From Saccopteryx bilineata (Eukaryota > Chordata > Mammalia > Chiroptera > Emballonuridae): a DNA stretch of 64,000 bases. This document shows positions 7,462 to 63,465 of the stretch, one piece after another; the stretch's first letter is position 1, and the number at the start of each line of letters is the position of its first letter. The DNA is taken from contig NC_089498.1 of the NCBI RefSeq assembly GCF_036850765.1, positions 71,092,305 through 71,156,304 on the forward strand, written 5' to 3'. Under the pieces are notes generated by a model. That model made no database searches. It worked only from the letters and a program-made list of their open reading frames with translations, and was not told the origin of the DNA. The position numbers and the translations under genes were made by a program.

Positions 7462-7720
7462 CCATATTTCCCCATGTATAAGATGCTCCCATGTATAAGA
7501 CACACCTTAATTTTGGGGCCCGAAATTTGGAAAAAAGAAAGTATCATATAAAGTTATTGAACTCAAGTTTTGTTCATCATAAAATTCATACAACTCCTTA
7601 TCCACTCTAAAAAGCGGGAAATGCAAGTAAAAAAACACACAACTATAACCATTGTATAATATGCACCCAGTTTTTAGACCTCAAATTTTTTGGAAAAGTC
7701 TTATACATGGGGAAATATGA
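7462..7720. mobile_element. Short inverted-terminal-repeat element (MITE)
   Basis: The left end 'ccatatttccccatgtataa' is mirrored by the right end 'ttatacatggggaaatatga' with one mismatch near the tip. The tip is bounded by TA on each side (7460-7461 and 7721-7722), consistent with Tc1/mariner-type insertion. The sub-motif 'cccatgtataaga' is repeated directly at the left end. At 259 bp it has no coding capacity. Assignment to Tc1/mariner rests on the TA alone. Confidence 0.6.
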
Positions 7721-15082: not shown

Positions 15083-15999
15083 TAGGGAGAAAAAGATGGC
15101 AGCGGAGTAGGCGGACGCACAGACGCCCAGCTCTCACCACCAAACTGGAATACAAATCAATTTAGGAAAAATCAGCATGAAAAACCAACTCTGAACTGCA
15201 AGAACAGCTCTCAAAAACCAAGGAGCAAAGAAGAAGCCACAACAATCCTGGTAGGGAGCTCCTGAATCTCCTCTGCTTGCAGGAACAAGGGGGGGGGGTG
15301 AGGCTGAGAGCCCAGAGGGGATCTCACACAGGGAAAAGAGCAGAAACTACTGCTCACAGCCACTTGCCTGGCGACCAGGGAGCGAGGTGTGTTGAAAAGA
15401 CCAGCTTATCTCCCAAGTGGAAAGGACAAGGAGAGGAACAGACTGTGAGGGGCTAAGGAATGCAGGAAACGAATTTAAAAAGCTGACTCATCCATGCTGG
15501 AGGCGGCCATAGCTGGGGGAGGGACTGAACCTTTCACAAAACAGAGCTGAAGTGCTTCTGGATCAGAGATCTCTGGACATCTATCCAGCTCCAATCAGCA
15601 CAACAAGACACAGCTGAGAACAAGAAGTGGGGAGGAGGGGCAGTAACTCAGGTCTCCATGGAGATCTGAGATACACCTCCCCCTACAGAAGCTGAGAAAA
15701 CACCCTGCCCCAGTGAGATTAGCTGGCTAAAGAGGCCTTCAGAGTCTCAGGTTACACCCATGGCATTCCTGGATACAGTTTCAAGGAAGCCCCCTGCTGA
15801 GATCAGTAAACAAGACTATCACCTGTTAAGAAAACAAACAAATCAAGACTTCAAAGCTTCCCAAATCTGAAAGTGGATTACAGATAACAGCTGATACCAA
15901 CCCAAGAAGACCTAGAAATAACACAACTGAAAACTGGAGGCAGACAACACCAAGCCTAGACTCAATCAACTCTACAAATAAAACACCCAAAAACAGATA
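15083..15999 (+). promoter_or_regulatory. L1 5' UTR / internal promoter region
   Basis: GC-richer leader between the TSD and the ORF1 start, beginning with 'gggagaaaaagatggcagc'. In L1 the 5' UTR carries an internal RNA polymerase II promoter; its activity here is inference. The same leader, reverse-complemented, occupies 31110-32029. Confidence 0.75.
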
Positions 16000-16893
16000 A
16001 TGAGAATACAAAGAAGTGCAATCCAAATGAAACCACAAGAGACACCTTCAGGAGATGAACTGAGTGATATGGAAATAATCAAACTTCCAGATGTGGAGTT
16101 CAAAATAATGATTGTAAGGATGCTTAGGAATCTTATAACAACAATGGAAGGTCATTATGAACACCTAAATAAAGAAATAGCAAGTATAAAAAAGAATCAG
16201 TCGGAGATGACAAATACAATATCAGAAATAAAGACCACAATGGAAGGAATTAAAAACAGGATAGATAGAGCAGAGGATCGAATCAGCGAGTTAGAGGACA
16301 ACTGGAATGAAGACATGAAAGCAGAGAAGAAAAGAGAAAAGAGACTCAAAAAGTCAGAGGAAACTCTTAGAGAGCTCTGTGACAACATGAAGAGAAATAA
16401 CATCCGCATCATAGGGGTTCCTGAAGAAGAAGAAGAAGAACAAGGGATAGAGACTTTGTTCAATCATATCATAGCTGAAAACTTCCCTAAATTAATGCAA
16501 GAGAAACTCTCACAAGTCAAAGAAGCACAGAGGACTCCATTAAAGAGAAACCCAAAGAAACCTACACCAAGAAACATCATAATTAAAATACCAAAGCTAA
16601 GCGATAAAGAGAAAATATTAAAAGCTGCAAGAGAAAAAAAAGTTATCACCTACAAAGGAGCCCCCATAAGGATGACATCCGACTTCTCAACAGAAACACT
16701 TGAGGCCAGAAGGGAATGGCAAGAAATATTCAAAGAAATGCAGAACAAGAACCTACAACCAAGACTACTTTATCCAGCAAGGCTATCGTTTAAAATCGAA
16801 GGAGAAATAAAAAGCTTCTCAGACAAAAAACAACTCAAGGAATTCGTTACAACCAAACCAGTGCTGCAGGAAATGTTAAGGGGCCTGTTGTAA
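16000..16893 (+). CDS. L1 ORF1 protein, intact 297-codon frame
   Basis: ORF1p is the RNA-binding chaperone that forms trimers and coats L1 RNA in the retrotransposition particle. The frame runs from MRIQRSAIQMK to a TAA after LRGLL. Residues about 50-130 are Glu/Lys/Ile rich with heptad-like spacing (coiled coil, trimerisation). 'NNIRIIGVPEEEEEEQGI' near 135-150 is the start of the RRM domain, and 'RMTSDFSTETLEARREWQ' with 'PARLSFKIEGEI' near 225-270 marks the C-terminal domain. It is somewhat shorter than the human protein (338 aa), with a shorter N-terminus. The ORF2 start follows 57 bp after the stop, as usual in L1. It is open but its partner ORF2 is broken; expression is not shown by sequence. 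Confidence 0.92.
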   Translation: MRIQRSAIQMKPQETPSGDELSDMEIIKLPDVEFKIMIVRMLRNLITTMEGHYEHLNKEIASIKKNQSEMTNTISEIKTTMEGIKNRIDRAEDRISELEDNWNEDMKAEKKREKRLKKSEETLRELCDNMKRNNIRIIGVPEEEEEEQGIETLFNHIIAENFPKLMQEKLSQVKEAQRTPLKRNPKKPTPRNIIIKIPKLSDKEKILKAAREKKVITYKGAPIRMTSDFSTETLEARREWQEIFKEMQNKNLQPRLLYPARLSFKIEGEIKSFSDKKQLKEFVTTKPVLQEMLRGLL

Positions 16894-16950
16894 ACAGATC
16901 AAAGTGGGAAAAGAATATAGCAAAAAAGGAATACACCTTTAAAGAAGAAA

Positions 16951-19900
16951 ATGGCAATAAACAACTACATATCAATAATAACCTTAAATGTAAATGGATT
17001 AAATGATCCAATCAAAAGACATAGGGTAGCTGCGTGGATAAGAAAACAGGACCCATACATATGTTGTCTACAAGAGACACACCTTAGAACAAAAGACACA
17101 CATAGATTGAAGGTAAAAGGATGGAAAAAACCATTTCATGCAAATGGAAATGAAAAAAAAGCTGGGATAACAATACTTATATCAGACAAATTGGACTTTA
17201 AAACAAAGGATATAGTAAGAGATAAAGAAGGCCACTACATAATTATAAAGGGAGTAATCCAACAGGAAGATATAACTATTATAAATATCTATGCACCTAA
17301 TATAGGAGCACCCAAATATATAAAGCAGACTTTGATGGATTTAAAGGGTGAGATCAACAGCAATACTATAATAGTAGGGGATTTCAATACCCCACTAACA
17401 TCACTAATAAGATCCTCAAGAAAGAAAATTAACAAAGAAACAGCAGACTTATTGGAAACACTAGATCAACTCGATTTAATAGATATCTTCAGAACCTTTC
17501 ACCCTAAAGCAGCAGAATATACATTCTTTTCAAGTGCTCATGGTACATTCTCTAGGATAGACCACATGTTAGGGCACAAAAGTGGTCTCAACAAATTTAA
17601 GAAGACTGAAATCATATCAAGCACTTTCTCCGATCACAATGGCATGAAATTAGAAATGAGTCACAACAGAAAAGCTCAAAAATTCTCAAACACATGGAAA
17701 CTAATTAGCAGGTTGTTAAATAACGAATGGATTAAGAATGAGATCAAAGAAGAAATAAAAAAAATTCCTAGAAACGAATGACAACGAGCATACAACAACT
17801 CAAAATTTATGGGACACAGCGAAAGCAGTGCTGAGAGGAAAGTTCATAGCACTACAGGCACACTTTCAGAAGCTAGAAAAAGCTCAAATAAACAACTTAA
17901 CCCTGCATCTAAAAGAATTAGAAAAAGAACAGCAAGTAAAGCCCAAATGTAGTAGAAGGAAGGAAATAATAAAGATCAGAGCAGAAATAAATGACATAGA
18001 GGCTAAAGAAACAATACAGAGGATCAATGAAACTAGGAGCTGGTTTTTTGAAAAGGTAAACAAGATTGATGAACCTTTAACTAGACTCACCAAGAAAAAG
18101 AGAGAGAGGACTCAAATAAATAAAATTAGAAATGAGTGAGGAGAAATAACAACTGACACAACAGAAATACAAAATATTGTAAGAAAGTACTATGAAGAAC
18201 CATATGCCAAAAAACTAGACAACCTAGATGAAATGGACAAATTCCTTGAAACATACAATCTTCCAAAAATCAATCTGGAAGAATCAGAAAACCTAAACAG
18301 ACCGATTACACCAAATGAGATCAAAATAGTTATCAAAAAACTCCCAACAAAGAAAAGTCCGGGGTCCGATGGCTTCACAACGGAATTCTACTAAATATTC
18401 AAAGAAGAACTAACTCCTATTCTTCTCAAGCTATTTCAAATATTTCAAGAGGAAGGAAGACTTCCAAGGTCCTTTTATGAGGCAAGCATAATTCTGACTC
18501 CAAAACCAGGCAAAGACAACACAAAGAAAGAAAATTATAGGCCAATATCCCTGATGAATATAGATGCTAAAATCCTCAACAAAATATTAGCAAACCGGAT
18601 CAAACAATATATGGAAAAAATCATACACCATGATCAAGTGGGATTTATTCTGGGGAGGCAAGGCTGGTACAATATTTGTAAATCAATCAATGTGATTCAT
18701 CACATAAACAAAAAGAAGGAGAAAAACCATATGATAATTTCAATAGATGCAGAAAAAGCATTTGATAAAATCCAGCACCCATTCATGATCAAAACTCTCA
18801 GCAAAGTGGGAATACAGGGAACATACCTCAACATGATAAAAGCCATCTATGAGAAACCCACAGCCAACATCATACTCAATGGGCAAAAATGAAAAGCAAT
18901 CCCCTTAAGATCAGGAACAAGGCAGGGGTGCCCCCTTTCACCACTCTTATTTTAGATGGTCCTGGAAGTTCTAGCCACAGCAATCAGACAAGAAGAAATA
19001 AAAGGCATTCAAGTTGGAATCGAAGAAGTAAAACTATCATTATTTGCAGATGATATGATATTGTATATAGAAAAATCCTAAAGTCTCAGTCAAAAATCTA
19101 CTGGAACTGATAAATGAATTCAGCAAGGTGGCAGGATATAAAATTAATACTCTGAAATCAGAGGCATTTTTATACACCAACAATGAACAGTCAGAAAGAG
19201 AAATTAAGGAAACAATCCCTTCACTATTACAACCAAAAAAATAAAGTACCTAGGAGTACATTTAACCAAGGAGACTAAATACTTGTACTCGGAAAATTAT
19301 AAAACATTGATAAAAGATATCATGCCTGACCAGGCAGTGGCGCAGTGGATGGAGCGTCGGACTGGGATACGGAGGACCCAGGTTCAAGACCCCGAGGTCG
19401 CTGGCTTGAGCGCAGGCTCATCTGGTTTGAGCAAAAGCTCACCAGCTTGAACCCAAGGTCGCTGGCTCCAGCGGGGGGCTGCTCAGTCTGCTGAAGGCCT
19501 GCGGTCAAGGCACATATGAGAAAGCAATCAATGAACAACTAAGGTGTTGCAACGCGCAATGAAAAACTGGTGATTGGTGCTTCTCATCTCTCTCCATCCT
19601 GTATGTCTGTTTGTCCCTGTCTATCCCTCTCTCTGACTCACTCTCTGTCTCTGTAAAAAAATAAAATAAAATAAAAATAAATAAAAATTTAAAAAAAATC
19701 AAGGAAGATACAAACAAGTGGAAGCATATACCGTGCTCATGGTTAGGAAGAATAAACACCATTAAAATGTCTATATTACCCAAAGCAATCTATAAATTCA
19801 ATGCAATACCAATTAAAATACCAATGACATACTTCAAAGATATAGACCACATATTCCAAAAATTTATATGGAACCAAAAGAGAACACGAATAGCCTCAGC

Positions 19901-21109
19901 AATCTTAAAAAAGAAGAATAAAGTGGGAGGTATCACACTTCCTGATATCAGGTCATACTACAAGGCCATTGTACTCAAAACAGCCTGGTACTGGCATAAG
20001 AACAGGCGTATAGATCAATGGAACAGAACAGAGAACCCAGAGTTCTCTGGACAACTGATATTTGACAAAGGAGGTAAGGAAATACAATGGAGTAAAGACA
20101 GCCTCTTTAACAAATAGTGTTGGGAAAATTGGACAGCTACCTGCAAAAAAATGAAACTAGATCACCAGCTTACACCACTCACAAAAATAAACTCAAATTG
20201 GATAAAAGACTTAAATGTAAGCCGTGAAACCGTAAGCATCTTAGAAGAAAACATAGGCAGTAAGCTCTCGGACATCTCTCGGAGCAATATATTTGCTGAT
20301 TTATCTCCACAGGGAAGTGAAATAAAAGACAGGATAAACAAATGGGACTATATCAAACTAAAAAGCTTTTGCACAGCTAAAGACAACAAGAACAGAGTAA
20401 AAAGACAAACTACACAATGGGAGAACATATTTGACAATACGTCTGATAAGGGGTTAAGAACCAAAATTTATAAAGAACTTGTAAATCTCAACACCAGAAA
20501 GACAATCCAATGCAAAAATGGGCAAAAGAAAGGAATAGACACTTCTCCAAAGAGGACATACAGATGGCCAATAGGCATATGAAAAAATGCTCAACATCAC
20601 TAATCATTAGAGAAATGCAAATTAAAACCACAATGAGATATCACCTCACACCAGTCAGAATGGCGTTCATCAACAAAACAACACAGAATAAGTGCTGGTG
20701 AGGATGTGGAGAAAAGGGAACCCTCCTGCACTGCTGGGAATGCAGACTGGTGCAGCCACTGTGGAAAACAGTATGGAGATTCCTCAAAAAATTGAAAATC
20801 GAACTGCCTTTTGACCCAGCTATCCCACTTTTAGGAATATACCCCAAGGACACCATAGAATGGCTCCAAAAGGAGAAATGCACCCCCATGTTTGTGGCAG
20901 CATTGTTCACAATAGTGAAGATCTGGAAACAGCCCACGTGTCCGCCAGAGGACGAGTGGATTAAAAAGCTTTGCTACATATATACTATGGAATACTACTC
21001 AGCCATAAGAAATGATGACATCGGATCCTTTACAATAACATGGATGGACCTTGATAACATTATACGGAGTGAAATAAGTAAATCAAAAAAAAAACTAAGA
21101 ACTATATGA
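16951..21109 (+). pseudogene. L1 ORF2 (endonuclease-reverse transcriptase), broken
   Basis: The first 276 codons (16951-17781) are open and hold the endonuclease domain: 'TLNVNGL' near residue 12, 'LQETH' near 42, 'GDFNTPL', 'SRIDHMLG' and 'SDHNGMKLE' with the catalytic His. An A-run near 17760 shifts the frame. Stops follow at about 18137 (TGA), 18392 (TAA) and 18889 (TGA). Reverse transcriptase landmarks remain: 'PGSDGF' near 18360, '[16 protein letters not shown]' near 18740, and the 'FADDM' catalytic motif near 19040. A SINE at 19325-19695 splits the rest. The C-terminal signature 'MEYYSAIRND' is at 20980-21010. Endonuclease might still fold; the full enzyme cannot be made. Confidence 0.95.
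19325..19695 (+). mobile_element. SINE type B, plus, in L1 ORF2
   Basis: Head 'cctgaccaggcagtggcgca', 'aggttcaagaccccgaggtc', A-rich tail with aaat units. Host L1 sequence ('gataaaagatatca' / 'aaaaaaaatcaagg') resumes directly after it. It is later than the full-length L1. Confidence 0.95.
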
Positions 21110-21397
21110 ATCCATACATAGAAGAGACATAAAAATGAGACTCAGAGACATGAACAAGAATGTGGTGGCAACAGGGGTGGGGAGTGGGGGGAGGGGGGAG
21201 GGGGTGAAGAAGGGGTTGGGGGAGGGGAAGGGCACAAAGAAAACCAGATAGAAGGTGACAGAAGACAATTTAACTTTGGGGGAGGGGTATACAGCACAAT
21301 CAAATGTCAAAATAATCTAGAGATGTTTTCTCTCAACATATGTACCCTGATTTATTAATGTCACTGCATTAAATTTAATAAGTAAATTAAAAAAAAA
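21110..21397 (+). other. L1 3' UTR with G-rich polypurine tract
   Basis: After the ORF2 stop, 21170-21232 is almost pure purine with many g-runs of 3-6 (potential G-quadruplex), a known feature of mammalian L1 3' UTRs. It ends in 'aataagtaaattaa' and a poly-A. The mirrored tract in the minus-strand L1 is the C-rich block at 25083-25150. Confidence 0.85.
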
Positions 21398-22380: not shown

Positions 22381-22674
22381 TTTTTTTTTCAAGTGAGAGG
22401 AGGAGATAGAGAGGCAGACTCCCACATGTGCCTCGACTGGAATCCACCTGGCAACCCCCTTCTGGGGCCAATGCTCATATCAACTAAGCTATCCTTAAGC
22501 ACCCTGGGCCTACACTGGCTGCAAGAGGGGAAGACAGAGAGAAGGGAGATATGGAGGGGAAGAGAAGCAGATGGTTGCTTCTCATGTATGCTCTGACCAG
22601 GGATAGAACCTAGGACATCTGCATGCTGGGCCAACACTCCATCCACTGAAACAAACGGCTAGGGCTAGCAAACT
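22381..22674 (-). mobile_element. Old type C-related SINE, minus
   Basis: T-run then 'aggcagactcccacatgtgc', 'ggaatccacctggcaacccc', 'gaagcagatggttgcttctc', head 'aaacggctagggc'. It shares its layout with type C but is shorter and lacks the 'accagggggcgatgctctgc' blocks. It matches 59508-59827 more closely than the young type C copies, so it is probably an older subfamily. Confidence 0.8.
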
Positions 22675-23519
22675 CTTAATATTAGTAATTTTTTATTATG
22701 GGCCTTGCAGGGTGCTATGCCAGGCACAGTACCCATTCTGACATCTCATACTGTCCTAGAGGCCTCATTCTATCACTCTGGAGTGTGAACTCTTGCCATC
22801 TCAATCCTGTATGTTGAAAAAAATCACTATGGTGTTAAAATAGACATAGAAACAACTTTATCTTTATTAGGACGGTGTAATGTGACCCAGACTTTGCTCT
22901 TTCATATTCAACGAGATATTATTGGTTTATGAGTCTATGAGACCTGGATTCCAGTCCTAACTCTTCCCCTAAATGGGTAGTCCTTGACTGTCTCTGGACT
23001 TGACCTTCAGTCTGTGGATATGTTCCATACAGTAAAGTACTAGTCTCATCCCATTGAATCACTAGATGATTCTCATAGGCCAGTAATTCCTGCCTGTCCC
23101 TGTTGTTTAATTTATAAACCACTATTTTCTAAAAATATGGAATGGTCCATATTACTGGTAATTTAGAGCGAATAAAAATTATATTTTGATAAGTTAAAAA
23201 TTGTGTGATTTCTGCCAAGTCCCCACCCAGGTTCTGGAAGCTGCAGAAGGAGTCCTCAACCAGAGGTTAATATCTAGTTCACCCTGAAGAGAACCAGGGC
23301 ATTCAAGGCCTTGCCTTCTGTGTGGCGCCTCTGCCATCTGATTGGGCTGAGGGCCCTGTACACAGTTAAACAAAACCAGTAAGGGCAGGACCTTAGCAGG
23401 ACAAGGTATGTGTGTTTGTCCCTTGAATTCCTTTCCTGAGTGTTCTTTCATCCCTGTGTCAAATTTTGATTCTTATTGGAATATAGGTAAAAAAAATTAC
23501 ATGCAAGGAGTTTGTTTTT
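22675..23519. other. Single-copy-looking stretch; source of a copied insertion
   Basis: A weak MIR-like stretch at 22695-22760 ('gtgctatgccaggcacagta'), otherwise no repeat I recognise. Bases 23086-23125 appear as an exact reverse complement at 26948-26987 inside the minus-strand L1 (see findings). No gene seen. Confidence 0.5.
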
Positions 23520-24826: not shown

Positions 24827-25365
24827 GAAGGAATAATATGCCCTTTAAATGGTAATTGTGGATCACATACAATGGACCATCTCTGGAAAGCAATAGCATT
24901 CAGTGATGGAGCTTTTTTTTTTTTAATCTTATTTTTATTAATTTTAATGTAATGACATTGATAAATCAGGGTACATATGTTCCAAGAAAACATCTCCAGA
25001 TTATTTTGACCTTTGATTATGCTGCATACCCCTCACCCAAAGTCAAATTGTCTTCTGTCACCTCTATCTGGTTTTCTTTGTGCCCCTACTCTCCCCCTAC
25101 CCCCTCCCTCTCTTTCCTCGCCACCTCCCCACCCCTCCATCCCACTCCCTGTTACCATCACATTCTTGTCCATGTCTCTGAGTCTTTTATGTCCCATCTA
25201 TGCATGGGTTCATATAGTTCTTAGTTTTTTCTGATTTACTTATTTCACTCTGTATAATGTTATCAAGGTCCATCCATGTTATTGTAATGATCCGATGTCA
25301 TCATTTCTTATGGCTGAGTAGTATTCCATAGTATATATGTACCAAAGCTTTTTATTTTTTATTTT

Positions 25366-25711
25366 TATTTTTATTTTTTGTATTTTTCTGAAGCTGGAAA
25401 CAGGGAGAGACAGTCAGACAGACTCCCGCATGCGCCCGACCGGGATCCACCTGGCACACCCACCAGGGGCGACGCTCTGCCCACCAGGGGGCGATGCTCT
25501 GCCCCTCCGCATCTGCTGTGACCAGAGCCACTCGCTGGGCCATCTCTGCTCCAGTGGAGCCTTGGCTGCGGGAGGGGAAGAGAGAGACAGAGAGGAAGGA
25601 GGGGGGGTGAAGAAGCAAATGGGCGCCTCTCCTATGTGCCCTGGCCGGGAATCGAACCCGGGTCCCCAGCACGCCAGGCCGACGCTCTACCGCTGAGCCA
25701 ACTGGCCAGGG
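25366..25711 (-). mobile_element. SINE type C, minus, in L1 tail
   Basis: 'gtatttttctgaagctgg' tail, head 'gagccaactggccagggcc'. TSD 'gtaccaaagctttttatttt' / 'gtaccaaagctttttaatcc'. Some internal sequence is missing around 25505-25545 compared with other type C copies. Confidence 0.95.
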
Positions 25712-26928
25712 CCTGTACCAAAGCTTTTTAATCCACTTGTCCTCTGACGGACACTTGGGCTGTTTCCAGATCTTTGCTATTCTGAACAATGCTGCTGTAA
25801 ACATAAGGGTGCATTTCTCTTTCTGGAACCGTTCTATGGTGTCCTTGGGGTATATTCCTAAAGTGGAATAGCTGGGTCAAAAGGCAGTTCGATTTTCAAT
25901 TTTTTGAGGAATCTCCATACTGTTTTCCACAGAGGCTGCACCAGTCTGCATTCACACCAGCAGTGTAGGAGGGTTTCCTTTTCTCCACATCCTCACCAGC
26001 ACTTATTCTGTGTTGTTTTGTTGATGAGCACCATTCTGACAGGTGTGAGGTGATATCTCATTGTGGTTTTAATTTGCATTTCTCTAATGATTAGTGATGT
26101 TGAGCATTTTTTCATATGCCTATTGGCCATCTGTATGTCCTCTTTGGAGAAGTGTCTATTCCTTTCTTTTGCCCATTTTTGCATTGGATTGTTTGTCTTT
26201 CTGGTGTTGAGATTTACAAGTTCTTTATAAATTTTGGTTCTTAACCCCTTATCAGATGTACTGTCAAATATGTTCTCCCATTGTGTAGCTTGTCTTTTTA
26301 TTCTGTTCTTATTATCTTTAGCTGTGCAAAAGCTTTTTAGTTCGATATAGTCCCATTTGTTTATCCTGTCTTTTATTTCCCTTGCCCGTGGAGATAAATC
26401 AGCAAATATATTGCTGCGAGAGATGTCCGAGAGCTTACTGCCTATGTTTTCTTCTAAGATGCTTATGGTTTCACGCCTATTTAAGTCTTTTATCCATTTT
26501 GAGTTTATTTTTGTGAATGGTGTAAGTTGGTGGTCTAGTTTCATTTTTTTTGCAGGTTGCTGACCAATTTTCCCAACACCATTTGTCGAAGAGGCTGTCT
26601 TTACTCCATTGTACGCCCTTACCTCCTTTGTCAAATATCAGTTGTCCATAGAGCTGTGGGTTTATTTCTGGATTCTCCGTTCTGTTCCATTGTTCTATGT
26701 GCCTGCTCTTATGCCAGTACCAGGCTGTTTTGAGTACAATGGCCTTGTAGTATAACTTGATATCAGGAAGTGTGATACCTCCCCCTTTATTCTTCTTTTT
26801 TAAGATTGCTGAGGCTATTCATGTTCTCTTTTGGTTCCATATAAATTTTTGGAATATGTGGTCTATATCTTTGAAGTATGTCATTGGTATTTTAATTGGT
26901 ATTGCATTGAATTTATAAATTGCTTTGG

Positions 26929-26987
26929 CCAGTAATAGTGGTTTATAATAGTGGTTTATAAATTAAACAACAGGGACAGGCAGGAAT
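26929..26987. other. Filler insertion inside L1 copied from 3.8 kb away
   Basis: The paired L1 reads straight from 'attgctttgg' to 'tatagacatt', but here about 57 bp intervene. Bases 26948-26987 are exactly the reverse complement of 23086-23125 (40 of 40). 26927-26936 'ggccagtaat' matches 23078-23087 in direct orientation. 'atagtggtttata' is tandemly repeated (26935-26947, 26948-26960). Confidence 0.9.
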
Positions 26988-29777
26988 ATAGACATTTCAA
27001 TTATGTTTATTCTTCCTAACCATGAGCACGGTATAGCTTCCACTTGTTTGTATCTTCCTTGATTTATTTTATCAATGTTTTATACTTTTCCGAGTACAAG
27101 TATTTAGTCTCCTTGGTTAAATGTACTCCTAGGTACTTTATTTTTTTGGTTGTAATAGTGAAGGGATTGTTTCCTTAATTTCTCTTTCTGACTGTTCATT
27201 GTTGGTGTATAAAAATGCCTCTGATATCTGAGTATTAATTTTATATCCTGCCACCTTGCTGAGTTCATTTATCAGGTCCAGTAGCTTTTTGACTGAGACT
27301 TTAGGATTTTTCTATATACAATATCATATCATCTGCAAATAATGATAGTTTTACTTCTTCTTTTCCAACTTGAATGCCTTTTATTTCTTCTTCTTGTCTG
27401 ATTGCTGTGGCTAGGACTTCCAGGACTATGTTGAATAAGAGTGGTGAAAAGGGGCACCCCTGCCTTGTTCCTGATCTTAAGGGGATTGCTTTTCATTTTT
27501 GCCCATTGAGTATGATGTTGGCTGTGGGTTTCTCATAGATGGCTTTTTATCATGTTGAGGTATGTTCCCTGTATTCCCACTTTGCTGAGAGTTGTGATCA
27601 TGAATGGGTGCTGGGTTTTATCAAATGCTTTTTCTGTATCTTGAAATTATCATGTGGTTTTTCTCCTTCCTTTTGTTTATGTGATGAATCACATTGATTG
27701 ATTTGCTAATATTGTACCAGCCTTGCCTCCCCAGAATAAATCCCACTTGATCATGGTGTATGATTTTTTCTATATATTGTTGGATCCAGTTTGCTAATAT
27801 TTTGTTGAGTATTTTAGCATCTAAATTCATCAGGGATATTGGCCTATAATTTTCTTTCTTTGTGTTGTCTTTGCCTGGTTTTGGAATCAGAATTATGCTT
27901 GCCTCATAAAAGGAGCTTGGAAGTCTTCCTTCCTCTTGAAATATTTGAAATAGCTTGAGAAGGATAAGAGTTAGTTCTTCTTTGAATATTTGGTAGAATT
28001 CACTTGTCAAGCCATCGGGCCCAGGACTTTTCTTTGTTGGGAGTTTTTTGATAACTGTTTTGATCTCATTTGGTGTAATCGGTCTGTTTAGGTTTTCTGA
28101 TTCTTCCAGATTAATTTTTGGAAGATTGTATGTTTTAAGGAATTTGTCCATTTCATCTAGGTTTTTTGGCATACAGTTCTTCATAGTATTTTCTTACAAT
28201 CCTTTGTATTTCTGTCGTGTCAGTTGTTATTTCTCCCCTCTCATTTCTATTTTATTTGAGTCCTCTTTCTCTTTTTCTTTTTGAGTCTAGTTAAAGGTTC
28301 ATTAATCTTGTTTACCTTTTCAAAAAACCAGCTCCTAGTTTCATTGATCCTCTGTATTGTTTCTTTAGCCTCTATGTCATTTATTTCTGCTCTGATCTTT
28401 ATCATTTCCTTCCTTCTACATTTAGGCTTTACTTGCTGTTCTTTTTCTAGTTCTTTTAGATGCAGGATTAAGTTGTTTATTTGAGCTTTTTCTAGCTTCT
28501 TAAAGTGTGCCTGTAGTGCTATGAACTTCCCTCTCAGTACTGCTTTTGCTGTGTCCCATAAATTTTGAGTTGTTGTATGCTCATTATCATTTGTTTCTAG
28601 GAATTTTTTTATTTCTTCTTTGATCTCACTCTTAATCCATTCATTATTTAACAACTTGCTATTTAGTTTCCATGTGTTTGAGAATTTTTGAGCTTTTCTG
28701 TTGTGGTTGATTTCTAGTTTCATGCCATTGTGATCAGAGAAAATGCTTGATATGATTTCAGTCTTCTTAAATTTGTTGAGACCACTTTTGTGCCCTAACA
28801 TGTGGTCTATCCTAGAGAATGTACCATGAGCACTTGAAAAGAATGTATATTCTGCTGCTTTAGGGTGAAAGGTTCTGAAGATATCTATTAAATTGAGTTA
28901 ATCTAGTGTGTCCTTTATGTCTGCTGTTTCTTTGTTAATTTTCTTTCTTGAGGATCTATCTAGTGATGTTAGTGTGGTATTAAAATTTCCTACTATTATA
29001 GTGTTGCTGTTGATCTCGCTCTTTATATCCATCAAAGTCTGCTTTATATATTTGGGTGCTCCTATATTAGGTGCATAGATATTTATAACAGTTATATCTT
29101 CCTGTTGGATTGCTTCCTTTATCATTATGTAGTGGCCTTCTTTATCTCTTACTATATTCTTTGTTTTAAAGTCCAATTTGTCTGATATAAGTATTGCTCC
29201 CCCAGCGTTTTTTTCATTTCCATTTGCATGAAATGTTTTTTCCATCCTTTTACCTTCAACCTATGTGCATCTTTTGTTTTAAGGTGTGTCTCTTGTAGAC
29301 AGCATATGTATGGGTCCTGTTTTCTTATTCATGCAGCTACCCTATGTCTTTTGATTAGGATCATTTAATCCATTTACATTTAAGGTTATTATTGATATGT
29401 AGTTGTTTATTGCCATTTTATTCTTTAAAGCTGTATTCCTCTTTTTCTATTTATTTTTCCCACTTTGATCTGTTTACACCATGCCCCTTAACATTTCCTG
29501 CAGCATTGGTTTTGTTGTAATGAATTTCTTGAGTTTTTTTCTTTGTTTGGGAAACTTTTTATTTCTCCTTCAATTTTAAATGATAGCCTTGCTGGATAAA
29601 GTAGTCTTGGTTGTAGGCTCTTGTTCTGCATTACTTTGAATATTTCTTGCCATTCCCTTCTGGCTTCAAGTGTTTCTGTTGAGAAGTCTGATGTCATCCT
29701 TATGGGCGCTCCTTTGTAGGTGATAGCCTTTTTTCTCTCGCAGCTTTTAATATTTTCTCTTTATCACTTAGCTTTGG

Positions 29778-30122
29778 TATTTTTTTCTTTATTTTTTATT
29801 TTATTTATTTATTTAACAGACAGAGAGAGAATCAGAGAGAGGGATAGATAGGGACAGACAGACAGGAACGGAGAGAGATGAGAAGCATCAATCATTAGTT
29901 TTTCACTGTGCGTTGCAACACCTTAGTTGTTCATTGATTGCTTTCTCATATGTGCTTTGACCGGAAGCCTTCAGCAGACCGAGTAACCCCTTTCTGGAGC
30001 CAGCAACCTTGGGTCCAAGCTGGTGAGCTTTTTTGTTCAAACCAGCGACCTCTGGGTCTTGAACCCAGGTCCTCCTGCATCGCAATCTGACACTCTATCC
30101 ACTGCGCCACCGCCTGGTCAGG
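29778..30122 (-). mobile_element. SINE type B, minus, in L1 ORF1
   Basis: Tail 'acagacagagagagaatcag', head 'ccgcctggtcaggc'. TSD 'tagctttggtattttt' before and after, matching host L1 sequence. Confidence 0.96.
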
Positions 30123-30566
30123 CTAGCTTTGGTATTTTAATTATGATGTATCTTGGTGTTGGTTTCTTTGGATTTCTTTTTAGTGGAGTTCACTGTGCTT
30201 CTTGAACTTGTGAGACATTTTCCTGCCTTAATTGAGGGAATTTTTCAGCTATGATATGATTGAACAAAGCCTCTATCCCTTGTTCTTTGTCTTCTTCAGG
30301 AACCCCTATGATGCGGATGTTATTTTTCTTTATGTTGTCACAGAGCTCTCTAAGAGTTTTCCTCAGACTTTTTGAGTCTCTTTTCTTTTTTCTTCTCTGC
30401 TTTCATGCCTTCATTCCAGTTGTCCTCCAACTCGCTGATTCGATCCTCAGCTCTATCCATCCTGTTTTTAATTCCTTCCATTGTAGTCTTCATTTCTGAT
30501 ATTGTATTTGTCATCTCCGACTGATTCTTTTTTTTAATATTTCAATATCCTTTTTTATACTTGCTA

Positions 30567-30920
30567 TTTTTTTTTAAATGTATTTATTTTTTACAGAGAC
30601 AGAGAGTGAGTCAGAGAGAGGGATAGACAGGGACAGACAGACAGGAACAGAGAGAGATGAGAAGCATCAATCATTAGTTTTTCATTGCGCGTTGCAACAC
30701 CTTAGTTGTTCATTGATTGCTTTCTCATATGTGCCTTGACCATGGGCCTTCAGCAGACCAAATAACCCCTTGCTGGAGCCAGTGACCTTGGGTTCAAGCT
30801 GGTGGGCTTTTCCTCAAACCAGATGAGCCTGCACTCAAGCTGGCGACCTCAGGCTCTCGAACCTGGGTCCTCTGCAACCCAGTCCGTCGCTCTATCCACT
30901 GCACCACTGCCTGGTCAGGC
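30567..30920 (-). mobile_element. SINE type B, minus, in L1 ORF1
   Basis: Tail 'acagagacagagagtgagtc', head 'ctgcctggtcaggc'. TSD 'atacttgctatttttt' / 'atacttggtatttctt'. Confidence 0.95.
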
Positions 30921-31109
30921 TATACTTGGTATTTCTTTATTTAGGTGTTCGTGATGACCATCCATTGTTGTTATAAGATCCCTAAGCATCCTTACAATCA
31001 TTATTTTAAACTCCGCATCTGGAAGTTTGATTATTTCCATATCACTCAGTTCATCTCCTGAAGGTTTCTCTTGTGGTTTCTTTTGGATTGCATTTCTTTG
31101 TCTTCTCAT

Positions 31110-32029
31110 TGTGTCTGTGTGTTTGGGTGTTTTCTTTGTAGAGCTGGTTGAGTCTAGGCTTGGTGTTGTCTACCTCCAGTTTTCACTTGTGTTGTTTCTA
31201 GGTCTTCTTGGGTTGGCATCAGCTATTATTTGTAATCCACTTTCTGATTTGGGCTGCTTTGAAGTCTTGATTTGTTTGTTTTCTTAACAGGTGATTGTCT
31301 TGTTTGCTGATCTCAGCAGGGGGCTTATTTGAAACTGTATCCAGAAATGCAGTGGGTATGACCTGAGGCTCTGAAGTCCTCTTCTGCCAGTTAATCTCTC
31401 TGGGGGTGGGTTGCTTTCTCAACTTCAGTAGGGGGAGGTGTATCTCAGATCTCCATGGAGACCTGAGTTACTGCCCCTCCTCCCAACATCTTGTTTTCAG
31501 CTGTGTCTTGTTGCGCTGATTGGAGCTGGAGAGATGTCTGTATCTCTGTGACCTGGAAGTGCTTTTGTATTCTGCTTTGTGGAAGGATCAGCCCCTCCCC
31601 CAGTTATGGCTGCCTCCAGCACTGAATGAGTCAGCTTTTCGTGTCATCACCTGTATTCGTTTTCCCCTCACCATCCGTCTCTCTCTCTCTCTCCTTTCTT
31701 TTTGGAAGACAAGCTGGACCTTTCAACACACCTCGTTCCCTGGTCGCCAGGCAAGTGGCTATGAGCAGTATTTACTGCTCTTTTCCTTGGAGTGAGAGCC
31801 CAGCCTCACCACCACCCCACCACCCCGTTCTTGTAAGCAGGGGAGATTCAGGCGCTCCCTACCAGGTTTGTTGTGGCTTCTTCTTTGCTCCTTGGTTTTT
31901 GATAGCTGTTCTTGTAGTCCAGATTTGGTTTTTCACGCTGGTTGTTCATAAATTAGTTTATAATCCAGTTCGGTGGTGTGAGCTAGGAGTCTGTGCGTCT
32001 GCCTACTTCGCTGCCATCTTCAGGTCTCC
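31110..32029 (-). promoter_or_regulatory. L1 5' UTR, minus
   Basis: Reverse-complement equivalent of 15083-15999, ending at 'cttcgctgccatcttcag' (the 'agatggcagcgaag' of the L1 start). Probably carried the L1 internal promoter. A 151-codon frame on the plus strand (31626-32081) crosses the TSD and is not a gene. Confidence 0.75.
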
Positions 32030-32045
32030 AGTGATGGAGCTTTTT

Positions 32046-41734: not shown

Positions 41735-42158
41735 TGAGAGTACGTTTATTAAAGCCTCCTTGGCAGCTCCATCTACCCCATGTTCCCTCTCTAGTATCCA
41801 ACAGAATGACCAACATTTAAAAACTTATACCATTGTAAAGGGATTAGTGAAGTATCTCCTGAAACAGGAAGATCACCTGGGTGGAAAGGGAACTAAGGAT
41901 CAGAAGAGAGCAGAGAAGTGTCCCCAAGGTAGCAATCTAGACACTGCCCTGTGGTATTGAGTATTTTAGCCCTGCAATCCTCATAGACTTGCTCTGGCTA
42001 TGGCAGCTCATTAACTCTCCTCTTACCCGTAATAGAGAACAACAAAAGCTTCTCTTCTCCCACCTACAGCTCACCTTTAAGAACTTCTAGGCCCCACCTG
42101 GAGGAGAGCGAAATCCAAAAGTGTCGTTAGGGCTGCATTTTCCAGGTTTGTCTCCTGA

Positions 42159-44473: not shown

Positions 44474-45130
44474 TTAACGAGAGAGGCAGACAGACAGGGT
44501 GAGAGATGAAAAGCATCAACATAGTTTTGGCACTTTAGTTGTTCATTGATTGCCTTCTCATATGTGCCTTTACGGGGGGGCTCCAGCTGAGCCACCGACC
44601 CCTTGCTCAAGCCAGCAACCTTGGGCTTCAAGCCAGCCATATCTACGATCCCACACTAGCCAGTGACCCTGCGCTTAAGCTGGTGAACTCTTGCTCAAGC
44701 CAAATGAGCTCGCACTCAAGTCAGCAACCTCGGGGTTTAGAACCAGGGTCCTCAGCATCTCAGGTCAATGCTCTATCCCAGGGGTCAGGAACCTCTATGG
44801 CTTGTGAGCCAGATGTGGCTCTTTTGATGGCTGCATCTGGCTCGCAGACAAATCTTTAATTAAAAAAAATAATAATAACATTAAAAATATAAAACATTCT
44901 CATGTATTACAATCCATTCATTTCCTACCGCTCATGTTCATGGTTGACTGGAGCCAATCACAGCTGTCCTTCGGGACAACACCAAATTTTTATTGGATAA
45001 TGCATAACGTACACGGGTCGTTGTATGGCTCTCACGGAATTACATTTTAAAATATGTGGCATTCATGGCTTTCTCAGCCAAAATGGTTCCCGACCCCTGC
45101 TCAATCCACTGCGCCATCACCTGGTCAGGC
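44474..45130 (-). mobile_element. SINE type B, minus, split by a hAT
   Basis: Left part 44474-44778 ('gagagaggcagacagacagg', 'gttgttcattgattgccttc') breaks in 'gctctatcc'. Right part 45100-45130 continues 'ccactgcgccatcacctggt' to the head 'caggc'. The hAT at 44779-45099 lies exactly between. Confidence 0.93.
44779..45099. mobile_element. Non-autonomous hAT element, family 2
   Basis: Ends 'caggggtcaggaacc' and 'ggttcccgacccctg' are inverted repeats. TSD 'ctctatcc' / 'ctcaatcc' (7 of 8). Interior 'ggctcttttgatggctgcat' and 'cattcatttcctaccgctca' match, in opposite orientation, the copy at 59065-59375. Confidence 0.93.
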
Positions 45131-49338: not shown

Positions 49339-49799
49339 CTCTGGTCAGATAGGTCTGTTGGTTAGAGCAGTGGTCCCCAACCTTTTTTGGGCCACAAACC
49401 GGTTTGATGTCAGAAAATATTTTCACGGACCAGCCTTTAGGGTGGGACGGATAAATGTATCACGTGACCGAGACAAGCGTCGAGAGTGAGTCTTAGACGG
49501 ATGTAACAGAGGGAATCTGGTCATTTTTTAAAAATAAAACATCGTTCAGACTTAAATATAAATAAAACAGAAATAATGTAAGTTATTTATTCTTTCTCTG
49601 CGGACCAGTACCAAGTAGCCTACGGACTACTACCAGTCTGCGGCCCGGGGATTGGGGACCACTGGGTTAGAGCATTGTACTGAAGCGCTGAGGTTTCCGA
49701 TTTGATCCCAGTTCAGGGCACATACAGGAACAGATCGATTGATGTTCCTGTCTCTCCTCTATCTTCCTATTTTTCTCTCTAAAATCAATAAATAAAGGT
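49339..49799 (+). mobile_element. SINE type D, plus, split by a hAT
   Basis: Left part 'ctctggtcagataggtctgt' to 'ggttagag'. Right part from 49665 'ggttagagcattgtactgaa' through 'gatcccagttcagggcacat' to 'aatcaataaataaa'. The hAT lies between. Confidence 0.9.
49368..49664. mobile_element. Non-autonomous hAT element, family 3
   Basis: Ends 'cagtggtccccaacc' and 'ttggggaccactg' are inverted repeats. Perfect 8-bp TSD 'ggttagag' (49360-49367, 49665-49672). Interior 'cagaaaatattttcacggac' and 'gaatctggtcattttt' match, in opposite orientation, the copy at 60187-60515. Confidence 0.96.
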
Positions 49800-59064: not shown

Positions 59065-59375
59065 CAGGGGTCGGGAACCTTTTTCCCTGAGAGAGCCATG
59101 AACACCACATATTTTAAAATGTAATTCCGTGAGAGCCATACAACGACCCATGTACGTTAGGCATTATCCAATAAAAATTTGGTGTTGTCCTGGAGGCCAG
59201 CTGTGATTGGCTCCAGCCACCCGCAACATGAGTGGTAGGAAATGAATGGATTGTAATACATGACAATGTTTTATATTTTTAACATTATTTTTTTAATTAA
59301 AGATTTGTCTGCAAGCCAGATACAGCCATCAAAAGAGCCACATCTGGCTCGTGAGCTATAGGTTCCCGACCCCTG
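59065..59375. mobile_element. Non-autonomous hAT element, family 2
   Basis: Ends 'caggggtcgggaacc' and 'ggttcccgacccctg' are perfect inverted repeats. Perfect 8-bp TSD 'ccctatag' (59057-59064, 59376-59383). Opposite orientation to 44779-45099. Confidence 0.95.
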
Positions 59376-60034: not shown

Positions 60035-60547
60035 AAAAAATTTAAAATGTATTGATTGATTTTAGAGAGAGCAAGGGAAGCATTCATTTGTTGTTCCACT
60101 TAGTGGTATGTTCACTGGTCACTTCCCATATGTGCCCTGATGGGATCAAATCCTCAACCTTGGTGTTTCCGGATGATGCTCTAACTCAGTGGTCCCCAAC
60201 CCCTGGGCTGCGGACTGGTACCGGTCCGCAGAGAAAGAATAAATAACTTACATTATTTCTGTTTTATTTATGTTTAAGTCTGAACGATGTTTTATTTTTC
60301 TAAAATGACCAGATTCCCTCTGTTACATCCGTCTAAGACTCACTCTTGACACTTGTCTCATAAGTTCGACAATTATATTTAAAAATACCACAGTTTTTAC
60401 GCTGGTCGCTTAATTTTATTTTGTGCATTTATCCGTCCCACCCTAAAAGCCGGTCTGTGAAAATATTTTCTGACATTAAGCCGGTCCATGGTCCAAAAAA
60501 GGTTGGGGACCACTGCTCTAACTGACTGAGCTAATTGGCCAGTGCTT
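60035..60547 (-). mobile_element. SINE type D, minus, split by a hAT
   Basis: Left part 'tgattgattttagagagagc', 'tttgttgttccacttagtgg', to 'gctctaact'. Right part 60516-60547 'ctctaactgactgagctaat' to 'tggccagtgc'. Confidence 0.9.
60187..60515. mobile_element. Non-autonomous hAT element, family 3
   Basis: Ends 'cagtggtccccaacc' and 'ggttggggaccactg' are perfect inverted repeats. Perfect 8-bp TSD 'ctctaact' (60179-60186, 60516-60523). Same family as 49368-49664, opposite orientation. Confidence 0.96.
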
Positions 60548-61737: not shown

Positions 61738-61911
61738 TTTAAAAAAAAAATTAAAAAAAAAATAAAAAAATAAAATTTTACAAACTGATTTGCTCAACAC
61801 ATCTATTTGTTGTTCCACTTATTTATGCATTCATTGGTTGATTCCTGTATTGAACCCATAACCTTGGTGTATTGGGATAATGCTCTAATGGTTAGAGGTT
61901 AGAGTCTAACC

Positions 61912-63078: not shown

Positions 63079-63465
63079 AAAAAACCAATTGTTTTAAAAC
63101 TTATAACTTGCCTTATCACAACTTTGAAATTTTAAAAAATGTTATAGTGCATTTTCCCTCCCAGGTGCTTGCCCGTACCTTTCCTTTCCCCCTCCTCTTT
63201 TTCCACAGGTGTGCACCTCCTAAACTCTAAGGGTCTCCAAGACTTGCAACGAGGGGAGCAATGGGCAATGGCGCTTTGTCCTGGGCTAACCCCTTGAACC
63301 TGTTTCCAAGGCTCCCTTTTCTCTGACTTCCCAATGTAGGCTCATTTCTTGCCCATAATGTTTTGAGAGAGACAAAGCAGCCCCACCTAGCCCCCTGCTG
63401 CTTCTTCTATCCTAGGCCCTTCTTTGTTTCACTATCCCAGCTTTAATAAACGTACTCTCAAAATA
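63079..63465 (+). other. Possible LTR or retrocopied transcript end
   Basis: 63150-63450 is pyrimidine-rich and ends 'ctttaataaacgtactctca' followed by an A-rich stretch 'aaataaaaaataaaaaaatt'. That looks like either an LTR R-U5 or the tail of a reverse-transcribed RNA. No open frame and no clean TSD. Confidence 0.4.

Follow-up and report, generated by a model that had tools for sequence, protein, structure and literature searches.

The window analysed here, a 64,000-nt stretch of contig NC_089498.1 of the bat Saccopteryx bilineata, includes an L1 element interrupted by a 56-nt insert, a related L1 of opposite orientation (15083-21397), and a donor segment outside the recipient L1 that matches the insert in inverted orientation. 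The features (in window positions) are:

24918-32028, minus strand: recipient L1 with SINE-like insertions, recognised by inverted-orientation similarity to 15083-21397 and by a flanking duplication
24901-24917 (left) and 32029-32045 (right): target-site duplication of the recipient L1, CAGTGATGGAGCTTTTT, seen as a flanking duplication
26929-26984: whole insert, 56 nt, replacing GT of the L1, right end ambiguous by AAT, delimited by BLAST blocks against the related L1
26934-26948, minus strand: first inverted run, 15 nt, donor 23126 to 23112
26947-26987, minus strand: second inverted run, 41 nt, donor 23126 to 23086
23086-23126, plus strand: donor (template) of the 41-nt inverted copy, an exact inverted match, single-copy in the window
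23078-23087, plus strand: candidate direct donor of the first piece, GGCCAGTAAT, a 10-nt match to 26927-26936
23150-23158, minus strand: alternative inverted donor of the first piece, CCAGTAATA on the minus strand, a 9-nt match to 26929-26937
23128-23167: predicted 14-bp hairpin in which 23128-23141 pairs with 23146-23153 and 23162-23167, with an 8-nt bulge at 23154-23161

The recipient L1 is bounded by its own target-site duplication, in which the last Ts of the left copy (24901-24917) merge into the T-run of the element. Compared to 15083-21397, the recipient L1 has three SINE-like insertions of 355-388 nt (25338-25713, 29769-30123 and 30533-30920). The related L1 at 15083-21397 is the best relative in the window and lies in the opposite orientation. 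BLAST blocks between the two elements stop at 26928/19780 and resume at 26985/19777. The empty site of the related L1 is TTTGGGTAATATAG, which reads TTTGG-GT-AATATAG (TTTGG-GT-AATATAGACATT); in the recipient, 56 nt (26929-26984) replace the GT, where the pre-insertion bases are assumed from this one sequence, the single in-window relative that covers the spot. The BLAST block ends and the empty-site sequence thus bear out the initial annotation, which held that the related L1 has no insertion at this point. Since the related element is without the insert, the L1 is taken as the recipient, and copying in the reverse direction, from the L1 to the donor, is rejected on the same ground.

The long L1 blocks on either side of the event are of similar identity, with 93.1% to the left (60 mismatches in 1219 columns) and 94.1% to the right (132 mismatches in 2746 columns), and the first 100 columns to the right are 92% identical. 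The comparison is based on the BLAST blocks. A MAFFT alignment misplaced the event because a SINE-like insertion is close to the site in the related L1; its substitution figures near the site are therefore inflated, and its counts (67/590 near the site, 444/5356 elsewhere) were set aside. The SINE-like insertion of the related L1 spans 19322-19681, and the L1 piece 27060-27083 aligns on both sides of it in the manner of a target-site duplication. A search for the L1-site pattern gave 25 loci in viral contigs and 68 in genome contigs. At an E-value of 1e-5, none of these 93 resembles the donor or the flanks of the L1 any further, and we regard them as microbial sequences that match by chance.

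The continuity of the L1 across the event bears on whether the insert is an artefact of assembly or amplification. In-vitro chimeras can form inverted joins with short microhomology, as are found here. The L1, however, resumes within 2 nt of the point of departure, with flanks that are 92-97% identical to the relative, and an assembly join would normally not be expected to return to the same L1. A chimera is considered very improbable.

Read from left to right, the insert is organised as L1 sequence ending in TTTGG, the 8-nt piece CCAGTAAT, the 15-nt inverted run, the 41-nt inverted run, and L1 sequence from AATATAG onward. As neighbouring pieces overlap, the start of the first inverted run is uncertain by 3-4 nt and that of the second by 2 nt. 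The second run (26947-26987) is the exact reverse complement of 23086-23126 at 41 of 41 positions, with 3,820 nt separating the arms; the 40-nt exact inverted copy reported earlier for 26948-26987 and 23086-23125 is thereby confirmed and extended by one base. The tandem doubling of a 13-mer, also recorded in the initial annotation, is found as 26934-26946 repeated at 26947-26959, and the first run matches the donor over 15 nt. The doubled 13-mer is a re-start of copying at about donor position 23126. More than one template switch is thus recorded in the insert, with two inverted runs that share a donor start and an additional piece of 8-9 nt. No target-site duplication of at least 5 bp is present at the insert, whose two ends repeat no more than four bases of the L1 site (AATA), and neither end carries a poly(A) or other A or T tract. 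A product of L1-type retrotransposition, or class 1 templated sequence insertion polymorphism (TSIP), is rejected for lack of a target-site duplication of at least 5 bp and of poly(A).

The length of the inverted match is well beyond that of chance. In 40 first-order Markov surrogates of the whole 64-kb window, exact inverted matches reached a maximum of 14-18 nt, compared to the 41 nt observed. To set aside repeats, all self-similarity of at least 60 nt was masked (33,679 of 64,000 bases), and matches of at least 18 nt with one arm less than half masked were retained. Of the 103 exact matches that resulted, the longest 40 were listed; among these, the 41-nt pair is the longest save for matches of a TTTC microsatellite, and the next inverted exact match is 23 nt in A-rich DNA.

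Other matches in the window include (i) an exact direct 32-mer outside the mask (2642-2673 and 61810-61841) with flanks that differ, perhaps a piece of an old repeat, (ii) an exact inverted 21-mer in unmasked DNA (41735-41755 and 63440-63460), the first copy directly after what we take to be the end of a SINE and the second beside a T-rich tract, and (iii) an exact inverted 21-mer with copies 215 nt apart (7463-7483 and 7699-7719), part of which, CCCATGTATAAGA, recurs just past the first copy. Long exact inverted matches of 49483-49606 with 60223-60346 and of 45015-45059 with 59105-59149 may be copies of other mobile elements.

The donor lies outside the recipient L1, 1.8 kb past its left (3') end. 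A blastn comparison of 22640-23500 with the window gave the 41-nt match, the 15-nt repetition of part of it, and two further hits that are weak and short, at 21 and 18 nt; no other full copy of the donor is present in the 64 kb. The region 22600-23500 also had no match in Rfam at the gathering score. An origin of the insert as L1- or SINE-borne sequence is rejected, as the related L1 is without it and the donor is single-copy in the window. The same evidence weighs against the 41-mer being an unrecognised genomic repeat, or an insert carried by the L1 lineage, with the nearness of the donor a coincidence. The first piece of the insert, moreover, has its own match no more than 40 nt away from that donor, and its 8-nt core CCAGTAAT occurs (on either strand) at one further window site, 38871; this account is considered very improbable. 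As donor and recipient became neighbours only once the L1 had landed, the insertion event most simply postdates the landing of the recipient L1.

The identity of the copies provides little guide to age. The two L1s differ by about 5% mismatch, or, assuming equal rates, about 2.5% for each; on this scale about two changes would be expected in 41 + 41 sites, and thus the absence of differences is no sign of recency.

Two donors are available for the first piece because the donor region holds CCAGTAAT in both orientations, as an 8-bp inverted repeat at 23080-23087 and 23151-23158. The initial annotation described a short direct piece followed by inverted copying. The direct match of 10 nt is upheld, with 26927-26936 equal to 23078-23087 and the 10-mer counted twice on the forward strand and never on the reverse strand of the window; the order of events is not established by it, as a path in which all pieces are inverted fits about equally well. 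In the direct path the first piece overlaps its neighbours by GG and AAT, and in the all-inverted path by no base and by AATA. As GG and GTAAT are already present in the empty L1 of the related copy, strictly only CCA is in need of a source. Within the donor region 23060-23180, two of the 64 possible triplets precede GTAAT, namely CCA and CTG. The two paths are about equally good and either is possible.

The direct path would entail a strand switch inside the donor, in which GG pairs, CCAGTAAT is copied in direct orientation (23080-23087), AAT mediates the switch, and the inverted runs follow. This sequence of steps is a sub-variant of the templated insertion favoured below, so its probability overlaps with that of the broader reading; it is proposed tentatively, at clearly less than even odds. 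It accounts for the 10-nt direct match, provides some microhomology at every junction (2, 3, 2 and 3 nt), and the 8-bp inverted repeat would ease the switch. It also has a counterpart in yeast, where such a structure is described for 15 of the 23 complex insertions of rad27 mutants (PMC11724301). Against this, no more than CCA strictly has to be explained, and the all-inverted path gives 9 nt without a second strand; the bases that it skips (23127-23149) include the predicted hairpin's loop and the greater part of its inner stem. The 3 nt shared at the switch are, in addition, few compared to the yeast junctions between opposite fragments, for which a median of 6 bp and a range of 2-11 bp are given (PMC11724301).

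Two junctions are unambiguous: AA (2 nt) between the inverted runs and AAT (3 nt) between the last run and the L1. Taken over four junctions, the microhomologies are 2, 3, 2 and 3 nt for the direct-piece path and 0, 4, 2 and 3 nt for the all-inverted path, in which the left L1 junction is without microhomology. Random donor-L1 junctions share at least 2 bases in 17% and at least 3 bases in 6% of 200,000 draws. The sum of 5 at the unambiguous junctions was reached in 3.5% of 100,000 random draws, where the control consists of donor-L1 junctions and one of the two observed junctions is donor-donor. The four-junction sums were reached in 0.5% (direct-piece path) and 1.2% (all-inverted path) of draws, for paths that were picked post hoc. 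Microhomology supports template switching short of proof; each instance is short and individually common.

A hairpin is predicted in the donor, and its foot is one base from position 23126, the possible start of both inverted runs. The segment 23070-23170 is predicted to fold with z-scores of -2.91 and -2.94 on the two strands, with none of 200 shuffles as stable. The hairpin itself is estimated at -7.1 kcal/mol for 41 nt; of plus-strand windows of this one length sampled every 7 nt, 299 of 9137 (3.3%) are at least as stable and 162 of 9137 (1.8%) also begin pairing in the first 3 nt. The stretch skipped in the all-inverted path (23149-23127) comprises the loop, 12 of the 16 inner-stem bases and the outer left arm. 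That path also copies 23150-23153, four bases that are paired in the predicted hairpin, and thus the hairpin would not have been fully closed at the time. The location of the hairpin foot at the common start, a post hoc test of a predicted structure, is suggestive of a role in the switch.

The reading best supported by these features is a templated insertion by template switching, to which we assign a probability of about 85%, whichever path holds for the first piece. The initial annotation had proposed template-switching repair; as a class this agrees best with the inverted copy, the patchwork, the microhomology, the repeated copying and the lack of a target-site duplication or poly(A), while the details remain conjectural. 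After the L1 had landed, a DNA break or a stalled replication strand would have arisen between TTTGG and AATATAG. The 3' end would then have paired by a few bases with the donor, some 3.8 kb leftward, and several short stretches would have been copied from it in inverted orientation. The first, of 8-9 nt, would have been followed by a skip or switch to the neighbourhood of 23126 and by 15 nt that reach 23112; after slipping back to about 23126, the polymerase would have gone on for 41 nt as far as 23086. The new end would finally have paired again with the L1 by means of AAT, and the gap would have been closed. The simplest geometry would be fold-back synthesis, in which the left end is resected by at least 3.8 kb to give a 3' tail with TTTGG at its end and the donor strand within it; as the tail includes this strand, self-paired copying would yield an inverted copy. 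The foot of the donor hairpin beside 23126 would account both for the skip of the polymerase and for its restart at the same place. Alternatively, in microhomology-mediated break-induced replication (MMBIR), a stalled fork and a switch between strands would produce the same sequence. The break or stall, the resection, the direction of synthesis and the effect of the hairpin are all proposed from the final arrangement; the enzyme may be polymerase theta or an MMBIR-type polymerase, which cannot be told apart from sequence alone. The more specific proposal of long-reach fold-back repair in the germline, with a strand exposed over at least 3.8 kb and a hairpin, rather than chance, setting the skip and restart junctions, is doubtful.

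As an alternative to copying in place, a DNA or cDNA fragment that already existed may have been captured by a double-strand break, as in class 2 TSIPs. The insert resembles this class in being templated without a target-site duplication of at least 5 bp or poly(A), with a small loss (here GT) and microhomology (PMC5110952). The patchwork and the doubled 13-mer, however, require several copying steps before or during capture. The donors described for class 2 TSIPs are distant genomic regions, for which captured RNA-derived patches are proposed, and the experimental insertions from such regions are 73-414 bp, whereas the donor here is found 3.8 kb away (PMC5110952). Fragment capture is thus viewed as improbable.

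Templated insertion by template switching is known from several systems. The complex MMBIR-linked templated insertions (MMB-TI), known as germline variants, share with this insert an inverted copy of at least 25 nt, several template switches and short microhomologies (PMC8421209). For the two people of that study, complex germline insertions copied from several templates are reported; over all classes, 138 of 155 and 135 of 148 junctions had microhomology of 1 bp or more, and complex insertions with several switches accounted for 33 of 103 and 26 of 99 of the curated calls that measured at least 25 bp (PMC8421209). An MMB-TI is recognised by an insert of at least 10 bp as an inverted template copy, which is found here with 41 of 41 positions; the resolvable junctions have microhomology (AA and AAT), and the several switches place the insert among the complex type. 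By contrast, the published template search is limited to 100 bp from the insertion, and the donor in this case is separated by 3,820 nt (PMC8421209).

Theta-mediated end joining (TMEJ) has in common with the insert an iterative, minimally primed copying, fold-back inverted copies and slippage, and its templated insertions are reported at human genome breakpoints (PMC12426944, PMC11292364). Priming by minimal base pairing is compatible with the 2-3 nt at the unambiguous junctions. The insertions of polymerase theta are described as generally less than 25 bp, occasionally more than 20 bases, and derived from flanking DNA (PMC12426944), although templates that are 'sometimes more distant' are mentioned (PMC12426944, PMC11292364). 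A 41-nt run from 3.8 kb away is thus at the edge of the class as described in these sources.

In yeast, foldback and distant inverted insertions are similar in that pieces come from one locus, possibly in opposite orientations, with 0-4 bp of microhomology to the broken ends (PMC11724301). The yeast events, as described, arise in repair mutants at an induced break, with donors in a variety of distant places (PMC11724301); for the bat insert, a two-orientation structure is possible. Great-ape short-range template switches likewise reflect template switching in germline evolution; their predicted secondary-structure stability rises at the first switch point with flanks less stable than background, and they are of short range compared to the 3.8 kb here (PMC7954356). 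Signatures of templated insertion are noted in 6205 of 56,222 complex substitutions of a human pangenome (PMC11724358). A search of the literature on bat genomes and template switching, short of a full novelty search, provided nothing relevant by title; published cases of kilobase range may exist, and no priority is claimed.

The insert is well resolved and adds a new case to a known class of templated insertions, with an unusual reach and a suggestive hairpin; as a single event it alters no known picture. The scar is natural, resolved to the base, and located in a copy of a mobile element for which an empty site is at hand for comparison. As L1 copies are very numerous in mammalian genomes, comparison of this kind could measure whether hairpins set the junctions of germline templated insertions, and how frequent insertions of kilobase reach are in the germline, beyond the 100-bp limit of the published search (PMC8421209).
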